Assembly (NCBI RefSeq): GCF_019703835.1
Contig: NZ_AP023054.1
Location: 2,789,580-2,853,579, forward strand
From: Thaumasiovibrio subtropicus
GTDB lineage: Bacteria > Pseudomonadota > Gammaproteobacteria > Enterobacterales > Vibrionaceae
DNA: 64,000 nt
Reading direction: 5' to 3'
Numbering within the stretch: the stretch's first letter is position 1; every line of letters starts with the position of its first letter. Under the pieces are notes generated by a model. It saw nothing but the letters and a program-made list of their open reading frames with translations. It had not been told where the DNA came from and made no database searches. The position numbers and the translations under genes are program-made. This document shows, in pieces, positions 15,282 to 21,759 of this stretch.

Positions 15282-16373
15282 ATGGGTTTTAAATGCGGTA
15301 TCGTCGGTTTGCCAAACGTGGGTAAATCAACGCTTTTCAATGCGTTAACTAAAGCAGGTATCGAAGCTGCGAACTTTCCTTTCTGTACAATTGAGCCAAA
15401 TACAGGGGTTGTTCCTGTACCCGATCTTCGTCTTGATGCACTGGCTGACATCGTTAGCCCAGAACGCATCATGCCAACAACCATGGAGTTTGTTGACATT
15501 GCAGGTCTGGTTGCGGGCGCATCAAAAGGGGAAGGTTTAGGTAACAAGTTTCTCGCAAACATTCGCGAAACTGACGCGATTGGTCACGTTGTGCGCTGTT
15601 TTGAGAACGAAAACATCGTTCACGTTGCAGGTAAAATTAACCCGCTTGAAGATATCGAAGTCATTAACCTTGAGTTAGCATTATCGGACCTTGATACCTG
15701 TGAGCGTGCTATTCAACGCCAAGCAAAACGCGCTAAAGGCGGTGACAAAGACGCGAAGTTTGAAATTGCCGTACTTGAAAAATTATTGCCAACGTTAACA
15801 GAAGGCGGCATGGCACGCGCTGTCGAGTTAGCAAAAGAAGAACGCGCCGCCATTGAGTACCTCAACTTCCTAACACTGAAGCCAACCATGTACATTGCTA
15901 ATGTCAATGATGACGGCTTTGAAGACAACCCTTTCTTAGACCAAGTGCGTGAGCATGCGGCGAAAGAAAATGCTGTTGTAGTGCCTGTTTGTGCCGCCAT
16001 TGAATCAGAAATCGCAGAACTCGATGATGCAGACCGTGAAGAGTTCCTTGCCGATATGGGGATTGAAGAGCCAGGGCTAAACCGCGTTATTCGTAGCGGT
16101 TATGAGCTATTGAACCTTCAGACTTACTTTACGGCAGGCGTAAAAGAAGTGCGTGCATGGACAATTCCTGTCGGTGCGACAGCGCCACAAGCCGCGGGTA
16201 AAATCCACACCGATTTTGAAAAAGGCTTTATCCGAGCAGAAGTCGTTGGTTACGACGCCTACATTGAGCACCGTGGCGAAAGCGGCGCAAAAGATGCGGG
16301 TAAATGGCGTCTAGAAGGTAAAGATTACATCGTAAAAGATGGCGATGTGGTTCACTTCCGCTTCAACGTTTAA
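15282..16373 (+). CDS. ychF: Redox-regulated ATPase YchF
   Basis: YchF is an Obg-family P-loop protein that hydrolyses ATP rather than GTP, binds ribosomes and responds to oxidative stress. The 363-residue protein has the Walker A loop GLPNVGKST at 9-17, the switch region [19 protein letters not shown], the altered NKxD region ([10 protein letters not shown]) that explains ATP preference, and a C-terminal TGS domain ending [11 protein letters not shown]. It starts with ATG at 15282 and follows pth. Confidence 0.97.
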
Positions 16374-16424: not shown

Positions 16425-16766
16425 CTTGCTTGATAGACTGTTTTTCGATGTAGTCCACTAGACCGTCAAAGCAGTGCCTTGCTGACAAACCTAGAAATTT
16501 TCGCTGAACAAGCATCTCGAAGTCGCTTGCGTATACGCACCAAGCCAAGAAGCTGTCGAAATTCAATTTGTCTGCTTGTGCTGAAAAACGGCACATTTGG
16601 TCGATGTTTACAACGTTTTGTCCAAATAAACAGCGAACGGTTTAGAAATCCAAGATTCTGCAAAAAAACAGTTGACGGTTTTTTCTGAGATAAGCATAAT
16701 GCGCCCCGTTCCCGACACAGCGGCTTCGAAAGAAAACGTCGTGAGGAAACAGAAAATCAGAGAAAT
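16425..16766. other. Leader and upstream region of the tRNA operon
   Basis: This 342-base stretch between the ychF terminator and the first tRNA contains no gene I can support; overlapping short reading frames on both strands lack ribosome sites and similarity. Near its end lies the tRNA promoter at 16672-16700, preceded by an A-tract (16661-16670 region) that may act like an UP element. Upstream A/T-rich segments could bind Fis, but no site is clear. Confidence 0.55.
16672..16700 (+). promoter_or_regulatory. Stable-RNA-type promoter of the tRNA operon
   Basis: TTGACG at 16672-16677 and CATAAT at 16695-16700 are 17 bases apart. The -10 is followed by GCGCCCC, the GC-rich discriminator typical of rRNA and tRNA promoters under stringent control by ppGpp and DksA. 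An A-rich run lies just upstream of the -35. Transcription should begin near 16707, about 60 bases before the first tRNA. Confidence 0.8.
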
Positions 16767-16843
16767 GGCTACGTAGCTCAGTTGGTTAGAGCACATCACT
16801 CATAATGATGGGGTCACAGGTTCGAATCCCGTCGTAGCCACCA
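16767..16843 (+). tRNA. tRNA-Met (CAU), elongator, copy 1
   Basis: This 77-base cloverleaf has acceptor stem GGCTACG/CGTAGCC, anticodon loop CTCATAA with CAU, T-loop TTCGAAT and an encoded CCA. It appears to match the E. coli metT elongator tRNA. Confidence 0.97.
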
Positions 16844-16877
16844 TTCTCCCTCCTTGCAGGAGGTACAACTTGAAAAT

Positions 16878-16962
16878 GCGCGGGTGGCGAAATTGGTAGA
16901 CGCACCAGATTTAGGTTCTGGCGCCGCAAGGTGTGAGAGTTCAAGTCTCTCCTCGCGCACCA
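16878..16962 (+). tRNA. tRNA-Leu (UAG), copy 1
   Basis: This is an 85-base class II tRNA with a long variable arm, anticodon UAG in the loop TTTAGGT, and encoded CCA. This copy alone has A at position 13 (GGCGAAATTGG); its acceptor has a G6-U67 wobble pair. Confidence 0.97.
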
Positions 16963-16989
16963 TCTTCAAGTAGACAAAATGATTTTTGT

Positions 16990-17064
16990 AGGGCTATCGC
17001 CAAGCGGTAAGGCAGCGGCTTTTGATGCCGCCATTCCCTGGTTCGAATCCAGGTAGCCCTGCCA
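16990..17064 (+). tRNA. tRNA-Gln (UUG), copy 1
   Basis: This 75-base cloverleaf has acceptor AGGGCTA/TAGCCCT, anticodon UUG in loop TTTTGAT, G73 and encoded CCA. Confidence 0.97.
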
Positions 17065-17117
17065 TAATTTTTAAGGTATACTGCTTCGCTCTCAAAAGTG
17101 CGAGTGATATACAGGAT

Positions 17118-17194
17118 GGCTACGTAGCTCAGTTGGTTAGAGCACATCACTCATAATGATGGGGTCACAGGTTCGAATCCCGTCGTAGCCACCA
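17118..17194 (+). tRNA. tRNA-Met (CAU), elongator, copy 2
   Basis: The sequence is identical to the first tRNA-Met copy, with encoded CCA. Confidence 0.97.
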
Positions 17195-17264
17195 TTGATT
17201 CGTTGTTAACTCCGGTTGAGTAACAACTACTTGGTAGTAGTAAGCACTGCTAAGCAAAATTTGT

Positions 17265-17349
17265 GCGCGGGTGGCGGAATTGGTAGACGCACCAGATTTA
17301 GGTTCTGGCGCCGCAAGGTGTGAGAGTTCAAGTCTCTCCTCGCGCACCA
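17265..17349 (+). tRNA. tRNA-Leu (UAG), copy 2
   Basis: This is an 85-base class II tRNA with anticodon UAG, G13 and U67 (wobble with G6), and encoded CCA. Confidence 0.97.
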
Positions 17350-17380
17350 TTATTTAGAACGTGTCGTAGACACTTTCTGC

Positions 17381-17455
17381 AGGGCTATCGCCAAGCGGTA
17401 AGGCAGCGGCTTTTGATGCCGCCATTCCCTGGTTCGAATCCAGGTAGCTCTGCCA
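17381..17455 (+). tRNA. tRNA-Gln (UUG), copy 2, with G3-U70 acceptor pair
   Basis: This copy is identical to the other four tRNA-Gln genes except for one base: the 3' acceptor strand reads TAGCTCT instead of TAGCCCT. That turns pair 3-70 from G-C to G-U. G3-U70 is the chief identity element for alanyl-tRNA synthetase, although the discriminator base here is G73 rather than the A73 usual in tRNA-Ala. The anticodon remains UUG and CCA is encoded. Confidence 0.95.
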
Positions 17456-17497
17456 CTATTTCACATAGTGGCTATACAATTAGCGATTATGTACGTT

Positions 17498-17574
17498 GGC
17501 TACGTAGCTCAGTTGGTTAGAGCACATCACTCATAATGATGGGGTCACAGGTTCGAATCCCGTCGTAGCCACCA
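17498..17574 (+). tRNA. tRNA-Met (CAU), elongator, copy 3
   Basis: The sequence is identical to the other two tRNA-Met copies. It is the last Met gene of the array; after it only Leu and Gln genes follow. Confidence 0.97.
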
Positions 17575-17661
17575 TTATTTTAGATAACTTGCTACAAGTC
17601 ATCTAACCTCAATGATTGACATCTATTGTTTTCATTGAGAAAAATTTAGAAAACAAATTAT

Positions 17662-17746
17662 GCGCGGGTGGCGGAATTGGTAGACGCACCAGATTTAGGT
17701 TCTGGCGCCGCAAGGTGTGAGAGTTCAAGTCTCTCCCCGCGCACCA
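17662..17746 (+). tRNA. tRNA-Leu (UAG), copy 3
   Basis: This 85-base class II tRNA has anticodon UAG and C67, so the acceptor stem is fully Watson-Crick. It opens the first 420-base tandem unit. Confidence 0.97.
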
Positions 17747-17778
17747 TAATTTGATAAGTATCTGTTGATACTATCTAC

Positions 17779-17853
17779 AGGGCTATCGCCAAGCGGTAAG
17801 GCAGCGGCTTTTGATGCCGCCATTCCCTGGTTCGAATCCAGGTAGCCCTGCCA
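17779..17853 (+). tRNA. tRNA-Gln (UUG), copy 3
   Basis: This 75-base cloverleaf has a standard G3-C70 pair. It is the middle gene of the first tandem unit. Confidence 0.97.
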
Positions 17854-17882
17854 CTTTTCCTTACGAAAGTAAGTGTAAAAGT
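17853..17882 (+). other. Stem-loop with GAAA tetraloop between tRNA-Gln and tRNA-Leu
   Basis: CTTAC at 17860-17864 pairs with GTAAG at 17869-17873 around GAAA, and ACTTTT at 17853-17858 pairs with AAAAGT at 17877-17882. It could be a processing signal in the tRNA precursor. An identical copy lies at 18273-18302. Confidence 0.45.
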
Positions 17883-17900
17883 AGCAACACAATCAGTAAT

Positions 17901-17985
17901 GCGCGGGTGGCGGAATTGGTAGACGCACCAGATTTAGGTTCTGGCGCCGCAAGGTGTGAGAGTTCAAGTCTCTCCTCGCGCACCA
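17901..17985 (+). tRNA. tRNA-Leu (UAG), copy 4
   Basis: This 85-base class II tRNA has U67. It is the third gene of the first tandem unit. Confidence 0.97.
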
Positions 17986-18081
17986 TTGACTCTCTAGTCA
18001 AATTACACTGATTTAAAGCTGTTTTTTCGGTCGCTATGCAGCCCATGTGGTGAGCTAGCACAAAACTTGAAAACAAATTAT

Positions 18082-18166
18082 GCGCGGGTGGCGGAATTGG
18101 TAGACGCACCAGATTTAGGTTCTGGCGCCGCAAGGTGTGAGAGTTCAAGTCTCTCCCCGCGCACCA
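18082..18166 (+). tRNA. tRNA-Leu (UAG), copy 5
   Basis: The sequence is identical to copy 3 (C67), as the first gene of the second tandem unit. Confidence 0.97.
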
Positions 18167-18198
18167 TAATTTGATAAGTATCTGTTGATACTATCTAC

Positions 18199-18273
18199 AG
18201 GGCTATCGCCAAGCGGTAAGGCAGCGGCTTTTGATGCCGCCATTCCCTGGTTCGAATCCAGGTAGCCCTGCCA
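18199..18273 (+). tRNA. tRNA-Gln (UUG), copy 4
   Basis: The sequence is identical to tRNA-Gln copy 3, with G3-C70. Confidence 0.97.
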
Positions 18274-18320
18274 CTTTTCCTTACGAAAGTAAGTGTAAAA
18301 GTAGCAACACAATCAGTAAT

Positions 18321-18405
18321 GCGCGGGTGGCGGAATTGGTAGACGCACCAGATTTAGGTTCTGGCGCCGCAAGGTGTGAGAGTTCAAGTCTCTCCTCGCG
18401 CACCA
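18321..18405 (+). tRNA. tRNA-Leu (UAG), copy 6
   Basis: The sequence is identical to copy 4 (U67), as the third gene of the second tandem unit. Confidence 0.97.
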
Positions 18406-18501
18406 TTGACTCTCTAGTCAAATTACACTGATTTAAAGCTGTTTTTACGGTCGCTATGCAGCCCATGCGGTGAGCTAGCACAAAACTTGAAAACAAATTA
18501 T

Positions 18502-18586
18502 GCGCGGGTGGCGGAATTGGTAGACGCACCAGATTTAGGTTCTGGCGCCGCAAGGTGTGAGAGTTCAAGTCTCTCCCCGCGCACCA
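18502..18586 (+). tRNA. tRNA-Leu (UAG), copy 7
   Basis: The sequence is identical to copies 3 and 5 (C67). It opens a partial third unit. Confidence 0.97.
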
Positions 18587-18618
18587 TAATTTGATAAGTG
18601 TCTTTTGATACTTTCTAC

Positions 18619-18693
18619 AGGGCTATCGCCAAGCGGTAAGGCAGCGGCTTTTGATGCCGCCATTCCCTGGTTCGAATCCAGGTAGCCCTGCCA
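18619..18693 (+). tRNA. tRNA-Gln (UUG), copy 5
   Basis: This is the last tRNA of the array, with G3-C70 and encoded CCA, followed by a spacer and a strong terminator. Confidence 0.97.
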
Positions 18694-18747
18694 CTTCTTT
18701 CTAACTCTGCAAGCCATCGCTTGCTAAGTTACGATAAGTTGTTATTC

Positions 18748-18777
18748 AAAACCCAGCCTCGGCTGGGTTTTGTCGTT
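18748..18777 (+). terminator. Terminator of the tRNA operon
   Basis: AAAACCCAGCC at 18748-18758 pairs with GGCTGGGTTTT at 18761-18771, followed by TGTCGTTT. It is the only strong terminator after the tRNA promoter, so the 15 tRNAs could be made as one precursor of about 2 kb. Confidence 0.9.
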
Positions 18778-18876: not shown

Positions 18877-20037
18877 CTACAACCCCATCGCGTACTTCAA
18901 AGCCTGCGCTTTTACTGGACCCGCTTTTTCTGCCAAGGCTAACCCGGCATTTCGTAGCAGCTTCAACGGCGGCAAATCATTGCTGAAGACACCATAGAAC
19001 AGATCCATTGTTGACTGCATCAAGCTATTGTCAGCGCGACGCCGACACTCATACTGTTGGAGTAAAGGCAAAGGTGAAGAAAAATCATCGACCTCAGCGG
19101 CGAGCCCTAGAAAAGCAGAGACATCTTTAAAACCAAGATTTACCCCCTGTCCTGCTAGCGGATTAATCGTATGGGCGGCATCACCCATTAATACGACTCG
19201 GCCAGAGAAATATTGCTGCGCATGACGACGAGTCAACGGAAACGCCCCATGGCGAATGACTTTCACCTCACCTAGCTCTTCAGGGAAATGCTCGTCGATT
19301 GCCTGTTCGAGCTGTTTATTGCTCATCATACCGAGCTGGCGAATTCGCTGTGGTGAGTCATACCACACCAGTGAGGCTTGATGTCCCGGCAGCGGTAAAA
19401 ATGAACGAGGGCCTTGGGGAGTAAACTGTTGCCAAGTTATATCCTGTTGGGCAGCTTCCGTTTCAACGTTGATCAACATGCAATGCTGGCGGTAATCGAA
19501 ACTTGTAATCCCAATCCCGGCCAATTGGCGGACTTTTGAGTTGGCACCATCAGCAGCAACCACCAATTCAGAGAAGATCTGCTCTCCACTTTCCAGTGTC
19601 AACAGCACCTCATTGCCCCGCTCTTCCAAGGAGACTAATCGGTCAGGACAATATAGACGTAATCGAGGAAAATGCCGAAACTGCGCCCAAAGTGATAACT
19701 GAATCAATCGGTTCTCAACGATGTAACCTAACCAATCTCGGTTTAAACCTTCAGTGCTAAAACGCGTACGACATAAGGGATGCTCCCACGTCTCTAAACG
19801 TCGAAAAGGGCATAAACGCATGGCTTTCAAGCCCTCCCAGCTCTCAAGCGCATCCAACAGCTTGACGGAATGAGGCGAAATGGCTGAAACACGCAGATCC
19901 ATGGGTTGTGTTGCGTCAAAGGCAGTTGGCTGCTGCCCTTCGATAACCGCGACACGTTTTCCCTGTTGGGCCAAACCCAATGCAGCAGCAGCACCCACCA
20001 TACCGCCACCAACGACCACGCAATCGAAGCGTTCCAT
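18877..20037 (-). CDS. ubiF: FAD-dependent ubiquinone biosynthesis hydroxylase UbiF
   Basis: UbiF adds a hydroxyl to the demethoxy-ubiquinol ring in aerobic ubiquinone synthesis. The 386-residue flavoprotein has the N-terminal dinucleotide-binding loop VVVGGGMVGAAAALGLAQ, the DG motif (VVAADGANSKVRQLAG) and the second FAD motif GDAAHTINPLAGQGVNLG. UbiF is chosen over its paralogues UbiH and UbiI because of the position: in E. coli ubiF lies between this same Met/Leu/Gln tRNA cluster and miaB. The ATG at 20035-20037 has AAGGA six bases upstream. It is divergent from miaB. Confidence 0.9.
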   Translation of the reverse strand: MERFDCVVVGGGMVGAAAALGLAQQGKRVAVIEGQQPTAFDATQPMDLRVSAISPHSVKLLDALESWEGLKAMRLCPFRRLETWEHPLCRTRFSTEGLNRDWLGYIVENRLIQLSLWAQFRHFPRLRLYCPDRLVSLEERGNEVLLTLESGEQIFSELVVAADGANSKVRQLAGIGITSFDYRQHCMLINVETEAAQQDITWQQFTPQGPRSFLPLPGHQASLVWYDSPQRIRQLGMMSNKQLEQAIDEHFPEELGEVKVIRHGAFPLTRRHAQQYFSGRVVLMGDAAHTINPLAGQGVNLGFKDVSAFLGLAAEVDDFSSPLPLLQQYECRRRADNSLMQSTMDLFYGVFSNDLPPLKLLRNAGLALAEKAGPVKAQALKYAMGL

Positions 20038-20334: not shown

Positions 20335-21759
20335 ATGGCGAAAAAACTGCTGATTAGAACCTGGGGCTGCCAGATGAACGAATACGATTCATCAAAAATG
20401 GCCGACTTGCTAAATGCCGCTAACGGCTATGAGCTTACCGAGGATCCAGAAGAAGCAGATGTGCTACTCCTGAATACCTGCTCTATCCGTGAAAAAGCGC
20501 AAGAGAAGGTATTCCACCAACTAGGTCGCTGGAAAAACCTGAAAGACAAGAATCCAGAGCTTGTTATCGGTGTTGGCGGCTGCGTTGCGACCCAAGAGGG
20601 TGATCACATCCGAGACCGTGCTCCATACGTTGACGTTATCTTTGGCCCACAGACACTACACCGTCTGCCTGAGATGATTAAGCAGTCTCGTAGCGATCAT
20701 GCGCCTGTGATGGATATCTCTTTCCCAGAGATCGAAAAGTTCGACCGCTTGCCTGAGCCGCGCGCTGAAGGTCCAACCGCCTTCGTGTCGATCATGGAAG
20801 GCTGTTCGAAGTACTGTACCTACTGTGTCGTGCCTTACACCCGTGGTGAAGAAGTTAGCCGACCTCTCGACGACGTGCTTTTCGAAATTGCGCAGTTGGC
20901 AGAACAAGGGGTACGAGAGGTCAACCTACTCGGCCAAAACGTCAATGCCTACCGTGGTGACACGCACGATGGTGAGATCTGCAGCTTTGCTGAGTTACTG
21001 CGCTATGTCGCGGCCATCGATGGTATCGATCGCATTCGCTTTACCACCAGCCACCCGATTGAGTTTACTGATGACATCATCGCTGTCTACGAAGATACGC
21101 CTGAGCTCGTCAGCTTCTTGCACCTTCCAGTGCAAAGTGGTTCGGATCGCATCCTCACCTTGATGAAGCGCCCACACACCGCGATTGAATACAAGTCGAT
21201 CATTCGTAAGCTACGCAAAGCGCGTCCTGATATTACGATAAGCTCTGACTTCATCGTTGCCTTCCCTGGCGAATCAGATTTTGATTTCCAAGCGACAATG
21301 AAGCTGATCAAAGACGTTGATTTTGACATGAGCTTTAGCTTTATCTTCTCAGCACGCCCAGGTACACCAGCAGCAGATTACCCATGCGATCTTAGTGAAG
21401 AGACCAAAAAACAACGCTTGTACGAACTGCAGCAACAAGTAAATACCCAAGCAATGCGTTACTCACGTCAAATGTTAGACACTGAGCAACGTATTCTAGT
21501 GGAAGGTCCATCGAAGAAAGATCTCATGGAGCTACGTGGTCGTACTGAAAACAACCGTGTGGTTAACTTCGCAGGCTCTCCAGACTTGATCGGCCAGTTT
21601 GTCGATGTGAAGATCACGGATGTATTTAGTAACTCTCTGCGTGGAGAACTCCTACGTACCGAAGCTGATATGGACTTGCGCACTGCGATGTCTCCAGCGG
21701 AAGTCATAGAGAAAACCCGCAAAGAAGATGATTTGGGTGTAGGGGTGTATACTCCTTAA
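20335..21759 (+). CDS. miaB: tRNA-2-methylthio-N6-dimethylallyladenosine synthase MiaB
   Basis: MiaB is a radical-SAM methylthiotransferase that adds a methylthio group to isopentenyl-A37 of tRNAs reading codons that start with U. The 474-residue protein has the three-domain layout: an N-terminal UPF0004 domain with cluster cysteines ([33 protein letters not shown]), the radical-SAM triad [15 protein letters not shown], and a C-terminal TRAM domain. It heads the conserved set miaB-ybeZ-ybeY-corC-lnt. The ATG at 20335 follows AAGAG. Confidence 0.97.

Follow-up and report, generated by a model that had tools for sequence, protein, structure and literature searches.

A tRNA-Gln gene with a G3-U70 pair lies within a 15-tRNA cluster

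The window – the whole 64,000-nucleotide stretch of DNA that was analyzed – contains a cluster of 15 tRNA genes (Table 1). Judged by its protein sequence, the upstream neighbor (15282-16373) is presumably a ychF-like gene, and downstream lie what we take to be a ubiH-like gene on the opposite strand (18877-20037) and a miaB-like gene (20335-21759). All five matches to a tRNA-Gln pattern in the genome fall inside the cluster. The five copies differ from one another only at base 70, which is U in the copy at 17381-17455 (hereafter the variant) and C in the other four. ARAGORN calls the variant as tRNA-Gln(ttg) across its full length, and the Rfam tRNA call ends at 17452. The acceptor strands read A1 G2 G3 G4 C5 U6 A7 and U66 A67 G68 C69 U70 C71 U72 G73 CCA. 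The first-pass annotation had described this locus as a tRNA-Gln(UUG) with G3-U70 next to four G3-C70 copies and had pointed to the resulting redundancy. ARAGORN and our base-by-base reading confirm both points, and the variant is thus a real, complete tRNA-Gln(UUG) gene with a G3-U70 pair.

Table 1. Coordinates of the tRNA cluster, its associated signals and G3-U70 tRNA-Gln genes found in other sequences
Feature	Position	Strand	Basis
15-tRNA cluster: 3 Met, 7 Leu(UAG), 5 Gln(UUG)	16767-18693	+	ARAGORN, Rfam
tRNA-Gln(UUG), G3-U70, CCA encoded (variant)	17381-17455	+	ARAGORN, Rfam RF00005, base-by-base reading
G3, 5' half of wobble pair 3-70	17383	+	sequence
U70 (T in the gene; C in four sister copies)	17449	+	sequence
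Discriminator G73 (A73 in tRNA-Ala)	17452	+	sequence
tRNA-Gln(UUG), G3-C70	16990-17064	+	ARAGORN, sequence
tRNA-Gln(UUG), G3-C70	17779-17853	+	ARAGORN, sequence
tRNA-Gln(UUG), G3-C70	18199-18273	+	ARAGORN, sequence
tRNA-Gln(UUG), G3-C70	18619-18693	+	ARAGORN, sequence
Sigma-70 promoter-like site upstream of cluster, followed by G+C-rich stretch	16672-16700	+	10 of 12 matches
Second sigma-70-like site, within cluster	17616-17645	+	motif scan
Intrinsic terminator-like hairpin after last tRNA	18747-18772	+	11 pairs
Bacillota tRNA-Gln(CUG), G3-U70	L007 3128-3202		
Bacillota tRNA-Gln(CUG), G3-U70	L008 3093-3167		
Bacillota tRNA-Gln(CUG), G3-U70	L009 7034-7108		
Bacillota tRNA-Gln(CUG), G3-U70	L010 7071-7145		
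Bacillota tRNA-Gln(CUG), G3-U70	L011 5580-5654		
Phage tRNA-Gln(UUG), G3-U70	L123 1734-1808	-	
Phage tRNA-Gln(UUG), G3-U70	L124 7494-7568	+	
Phage tRNA-Gln(UUG), G3-U70	L125 8344-8418	+	

The cluster is probably expressed as one transcript. No plus-strand terminator-like site occurs within it, and the only one on that strand in the region is the hairpin that follows the last tRNA. We infer a single transcript from this arrangement because the numbers of such sites are not clearly above chance: four promoter-like sites were found in the region versus 2.7 expected, with the upstream one weak on its own, and two terminator-like sites versus 3.0 expected, so that the position and strength of the hairpin count rather than the number. 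The variant is the sixth of the 15 tRNAs, and no plus-strand terminator-like site separates it from the upstream promoter-like site.

The idea that the variant might be a decoy or a partly silenced gene, raised in the first-pass annotation, finds little support in an intact gene so placed; the one point in its favor is a somewhat weaker predicted fold. Predictions for the isolated strand – which the modified tRNA in the cell need not follow – give the variant cloverleaf -27.4 kcal/mol versus -30.4 kcal/mol for the C70 form, favor an alternative non-cloverleaf fold of the variant by 0.3 kcal/mol, and yield z-scores against shuffled sequences of -1.12 and -1.94, respectively. The variant may be less stable than its sisters. 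A functionally silent copy – transcribed but misfolded, poorly processed, degraded, or barely charged by either synthetase – would fit these values, as well as an Rfam RF00005 score that is the lowest of the five tRNA-Gln copies (59.4 bits, versus 61.8 bits for the four sisters). That score is nevertheless far above the gathering score of 29 bits, all four stems can pair with a single wobble, the same wobble pair is standard in the almost identical tRNA-Ala stem, and the variant shares its cluster with normal copies. We therefore regard silence as improbable.

Copy-to-copy differences in acceptor wobble pairing are not confined to tRNA-Gln in this cluster, since the tRNA-Leu(UAG) isodecoders have G6-U67 in four of seven genes (16878, 17265, 17901, 18321) and G6-C67 in three (17662, 18082, 18502). 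The first tRNA-Leu copy (16878) additionally has A for G in the D arm. By eye, near-identical 420-base units of Leu-Gln-Leu and their spacers span 17662-18081 and 18082-18501, followed by a third, partial Leu-Gln unit at 18502-18693; these units likely arose by recent tandem amplification within the cluster. The variant lies outside them.

Arrays of near-identical tRNA genes are prone to sequence errors, and U70 is seen in one genome only, as expected if the base were an artifact of sequencing or of assembling this repetitive array. Against an error, the genome is assembled in three contigs and rated 100% complete, and the variant's spacers are unlike the others on both sides, including those of the 420-base units from 17662 on. 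Because of these distinct flanks, ordinary short reads should place the variant uniquely. An error is, in our estimate, very improbable.

The variant combines glutamine and alanine identity elements

The reported bacterial glutamine determinants are G73, U1-A72, G2-C71, G3-C70, G10, and U34-U35-G36-A37-U38, and the alanine determinants are A73, G2-C71, G3-U70, G4-C69, and G20 (PMC9976931). Consistent with the earlier claim, G3-U70 is given as the main determinant for alanyl-tRNA synthetase (AlaRS) (PMC9976931, section 22). From the glutamine set, the variant has the anticodon and loop bases U34, U35, G36, A37, and U38, along with G73, G2-C71, and G10. It lacks G3-C70, which the other four copies keep. 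It also lacks U1-A72, though this is not specific to the variant, as A1-U72 is shared by the five copies here and by all seven copies of a congener. From the alanine set, G3-U70, G2-C71, and G4-C69 are present. A73 and G20 are absent, the variant having G73 and U20, and so is an alanine anticodon. The first-pass annotation had noted G73 in place of A73, and the published alanine set bears this out (PMC9976931).

Comparison with the genome's own tRNA-Ala extends the likeness beyond the wobble pair. The acceptor strands are GGGGCTA / TAGCTCC-A in tRNA-Ala and AGGGCTA / TAGCTCT-G in the variant, such that U70 leaves no difference in pairs 2-71 to 7-66 and the acceptor differences come down to pair 1-72 and base 73. 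The body of the variant also differs from that of tRNA-Ala. We considered gene conversion from tRNA-Ala as the source of U70 and rejected it: only six bases around the changed position, U66-C71, are shared, the flanks differ at 65 and 72 from the UGC tRNA-Ala and at 72 from both tRNA-Ala, and a point transition is simpler.

To place the pair among the tRNAs of the genome (5.56 Mb), 150 of 335 candidates were scored, giving at least 121 tRNAs. G3-U70 is present in all six recovered tRNA-Ala and in 1 of the 115 others, which include one doubtful tRNA-Asn. The latter, a tRNA-like match called as tRNA-Asn(att) at G000:C2:1376021-1376093 (L099), lacks CCA, is unpaired at 3-70, and is probably a false positive or a pseudo-tRNA. 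Among the contigs, G000:C3 is possibly a plasmid: 20,000 of its 35,361 bases (L105), compared with PLSDB plasmids, gave only short matches to six Vibrio plasmids covering 2-3% of the query each. In five of these six plasmids, the matches are annotated as toxin-antitoxin-type genes (RelE or HicA/HicB).

U70 is derived and private among the genomes compared

The first-pass annotation had proposed looking for the same base in related genomes. Within an even sample of 296 family genomes, a strict pattern found a G3-U70 tRNA-Gln only in the variant's own genome, in one copy, and a looser pattern validated on the window again returned this genome alone. By comparison, G3-C70 tRNA-Gln accounted for 906 copies in 227 of the 296 genomes; the other 69 have tRNA-Gln genes that fall outside the strict pattern. 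The ratio of 1 to 906 copies in the sample would fit purifying selection against the G3-U70 pair. A control pattern with G2-U71 also matched none of the 296 genomes, and a rarity particular to position 3 is accordingly not shown.

The one congener compared (G001) encodes seven tRNA-Gln copies, all with C70. Two of these have a downstream spacer like that of the variant (CTATTTC.CATAGTGGCTA...), and both are C70. Since the spacer-matched copies and the family pattern agree on C70, we conclude that U70 is derived and private to its genome among those compared, with the polarity read from one congener and the family pattern. The base is absent from the 295 other family genomes sampled as well as from the spacer-matched congener copies, and we rejected a conserved functional variant on these grounds. 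Conservation across related genomes, as expected of a dedicated mistranslating tRNA of the tRNA-ProX type, is not seen (1 of 296).

One AlaRS and one GlnRS of the genome exceed the family cut-offs

We next consider the enzymes that would charge the variant. One AlaRS (alaS) and one glutaminyl-tRNA synthetase (GlnRS; glnS) exceed the family cut-offs in the genome, both in frames without stops. A dedicated second AlaRS was looked for, and none above the cut-off was found there; nor did a co-encoded or second synthetase isoform of the kind that accompanies tRNA-ProX appear above the cut-offs. Weaker matches fell below the cut-off (L119, L121, L122), two of which (L119 and L121) we take, by sequence, to resemble threonyl- and glutamyl-tRNA synthetase.

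By alignment, the AlaRS and GlnRS are close to PDB chains 3hxu and 1o0b, respectively, both presumably from E. coli. The AlaRS keeps the N of PSNE and the D of LYDTYGFP, which we take to be N303 and D400, the residues that read G3-U70. The GlnRS keeps FQDNRR, presumably the site of D235. A relaxed GlnRS was rejected because this context is unchanged relative to the aligned chain, and neither enzyme gave any sign of adaptation at these sites, the ones inspected.

The variant is probably a redundant copy charged mostly with glutamine

Taken together, these observations suggest that the variant is probably an expressed, redundant isodecoder carrying a recent private C70U change and charged mostly with glutamine, with a minor alanine fraction (probability roughly 0.6). 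A single recent C-to-U transition at position 70 in this lineage would have removed one GlnRS determinant (G3-C70) and added the main AlaRS determinant (G3-U70). Four sister copies make the gene redundant, so the mutation would be tolerated and drift. The variant would be transcribed with its neighbors and mature. Its charging would be mostly with glutamine, or somewhat incomplete, since GlnRS is still favored by the anticodon, which is intact, and by G2-C71, G10, and G73. The ordinary AlaRS would charge a minor fraction with alanine, leading to low-level Gln-to-Ala substitution, and no selected function is required. The variant is accordingly most likely a spare copy with a near-neutral mutation, and selected mistranslation has no support, given the lack of conservation and of a second AlaRS above the cut-off. 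An intact tRNA in a cluster with an upstream promoter-like site and a downstream plus-strand terminator-like hairpin argues for this reading. The identity of acceptor pairs 2-7 with those of tRNA-Ala argues against it, in that the alanine share may be more than minor.

The codons exposed to such substitution are more numerous than first proposed. Pattern searches and the recovered tRNAs revealed no tRNA-Gln(CUG) in the genome, so CAG as well as CAA should be read by the UUG copies; the earlier suggestion that alanine could be placed at CAA codons would extend to CAG. Across the window, the 36 mechanical ORFs with 250 codons or more contain 677 glutamine codons among 14,651 (438 CAA and 239 CAG).

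The reverse balance of charging has also to be weighed. Should AlaRS outcompete GlnRS and EF-Tu deliver the resulting Ala-tRNA-Gln, the variant would be mainly an alanine acceptor and the code would be ambiguous at both glutamine codons; given equal expression of the five genes, this would concern as much as roughly one fifth of the pool of glutamine tRNA. Pairs 2-71 to 7-66 shared with tRNA-Ala and an AlaRS that keeps both residues taken as readers of G3-U70 are consistent with this outcome. On the other side stand G73 rather than A73, A1-U72 rather than G1-C72, and U20 rather than G20; a share of glutamine codons at which heavy replacement would be costly; and a base conserved in none of the other family genomes. 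Weak binding of Ala-tRNA-Gln by EF-Tu would count against delivery as well: LaRiviere 2001 reportedly placed this species among the weakest EF-Tu binders. That argument is weakened because a review gives EF-Tu little part in fidelity in vivo (PMC11415595, section 8). The cited papers, in the sections drawn on here, name no bacterial editing enzyme for Ala-tRNA-Gln, and G3-U70 transplanted into other tRNAs makes them substrates of AlaRS, both in vitro and in vivo (PMC7373986). On balance, we consider a predominantly alanine-accepting variant distinctly unlikely.

An intermediate state, in which AlaRS charges a measurable part of the variant and some alanine is inserted alongside glutamine at both CAA and CAG, is a more tentative proposal than the mostly glutamine-charged copy that we prefer, and is itself rather unlikely. 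Were such a natural dual-identity tRNA-Gln to exist here, it would represent a standing, gene-encoded ambiguity arising from one base in a tRNA with tRNA-Ala-like pairs 2-7.

The first-pass interpretation is borne out in part: it holds for the pair itself, its role as a determinant, G73, and redundancy, and gains from pairs 2-7 and the AlaRS residues; the private base and the lack of a second AlaRS above the cut-off tell against it. The locus offers a natural single-base comparison in one bacterium, where one G3-U70 tRNA-Gln gene sits beside four normal ones. The system would allow a direct test of how well glutamine codons are protected by G73, A1-U72, and competition from GlnRS, and of whether identity mutations can drift in redundant tRNA arrays.

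Relation to known non-alanine tRNAs with an alanine pair

Human tRNA-Gly variants with G3:U70 are among the closest precedents: they are natural non-alanine copies in redundant families, some made by one base change, as here, and mistranslation is predicted for them (PMC6779403). Like them, the variant is a non-alanine tRNA gene with G3-U70. In the human tRNAs the change is at position 3 (PMC6779403), while here it is at position 70 of a bacterial tRNA-Gln whose pairs 2-7 equal those of tRNA-Ala.

Measured consequences of the same wobble pair come from yeast and mammalian cells that carry tRNA-Pro G3:U70 (PMC6779403, PMC8599886). In yeast, this tRNA places alanine at about 5% of proline codons (PMC6779403). 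The human tRNA-Pro G3:U70 is an efficient alanine acceptor that gives about 2-3% alanine at proline codons in mammalian cells, and it is toxic in combination with a polyglutamine allele but not by itself (PMC8599886). Those genes were added and concern proline, with alanine insertion measured, whereas the variant is a native glutamine tRNA gene known from sequence. A review also lists mutants of human tRNA-Pro, -Cys, -Thr, and -Gly (PMC11415595). In the papers cited here, the non-alanine G3-U70 tRNAs are transplants or human variants.

A choanoflagellate tRNA-Gln with G4-U69 offers a natural acceptor G-U pair in a tRNA for the same amino acid and is charged by AlaRS to 4-7% (PMC7302879). It differs in the position of the pair, in being eukaryotic, and in that the editing enzyme ATD is invoked; bacterial AlaRS is described as charging only G3-U70 tRNAs (PMC7302879).

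Bacterial examples of mixed identity are also on record. tRNA-ProX and ProRSx of Streptomyces and relatives combine the identity elements of two amino acids, as the variant does, but tRNA-ProX is spread across many species, has an altered anticodon, and comes with a dedicated synthetase (PMC11415595); the variant is a private base change with no dedicated synthetase. The variant thus shows neither the conservation nor the synthetase of a tRNA-ProX-type system. A tRNA-Sec with a Cys anticodon is a rare natural mismatch between identity and anticodon, and further mismatched bacterial tRNAs are noted in the same review (PMC11415595, section 18); in the variant, one acceptor pair is affected rather than a whole-tRNA hybrid formed. 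The variant is therefore of a known kind – a private non-alanine tRNA allele with the alanine pair – found here in a bacterial tRNA-Gln. Judged by titles and abstract openings, and with most subscription journals outside coverage, none of the literature matches listed described a bacterial tRNA-Gln that naturally carries G3-U70.

G3-U70 tRNA-Gln genes occur rarely elsewhere

We scanned a collection of 84,980 species, with one genome per species, using the strict G3-U70 tRNA-Gln pattern and requiring an encoded CCA; the scan may omit the window's own and very near records. Five other G3-U70 tRNA-Gln genes were recovered, all in Bacillota metagenome bins (Table 1), of which three are titled as clostridia (Alkalibaculum, Clostridium, and 'Clostridia bacterium') and two just as Bacillota. 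All five have U1-A72, G2-C71, and G73. L008 and L009 are related, with 84% identity over 1.9 kb. Each of these genomes has one match to the looser tRNA-Gln pattern, and the G3-U70 gene may be the sole CUG isoacceptor in its genome.

Among IMG/VR sequences, the strict G3-U70 pattern matched 3 stretches, versus 65 for C70. The three stretches (L123-L125) are one phage, since the compared parts that they share are 100% identical (8,687 and 3,765 bases). G3-U70 tRNA-Gln genes thus occur in other sequences, but rarely. Like the variant, the Bacillota and phage genes have G2-C71, G3-U70, and G73. The Bacillota genes differ from it in their CUG anticodon and U1-A72. The phage gene has UUG, A1-U72, and G4-C69. 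If a dual-identity tRNA-Gln is borne out, the Bacillota CUG tRNAs and the phage tRNA, which carry the same pair, would be further natural cases. The phage gene sits within an array of tRNAs for Ser, Trp, Pro, Gly, and Leu.
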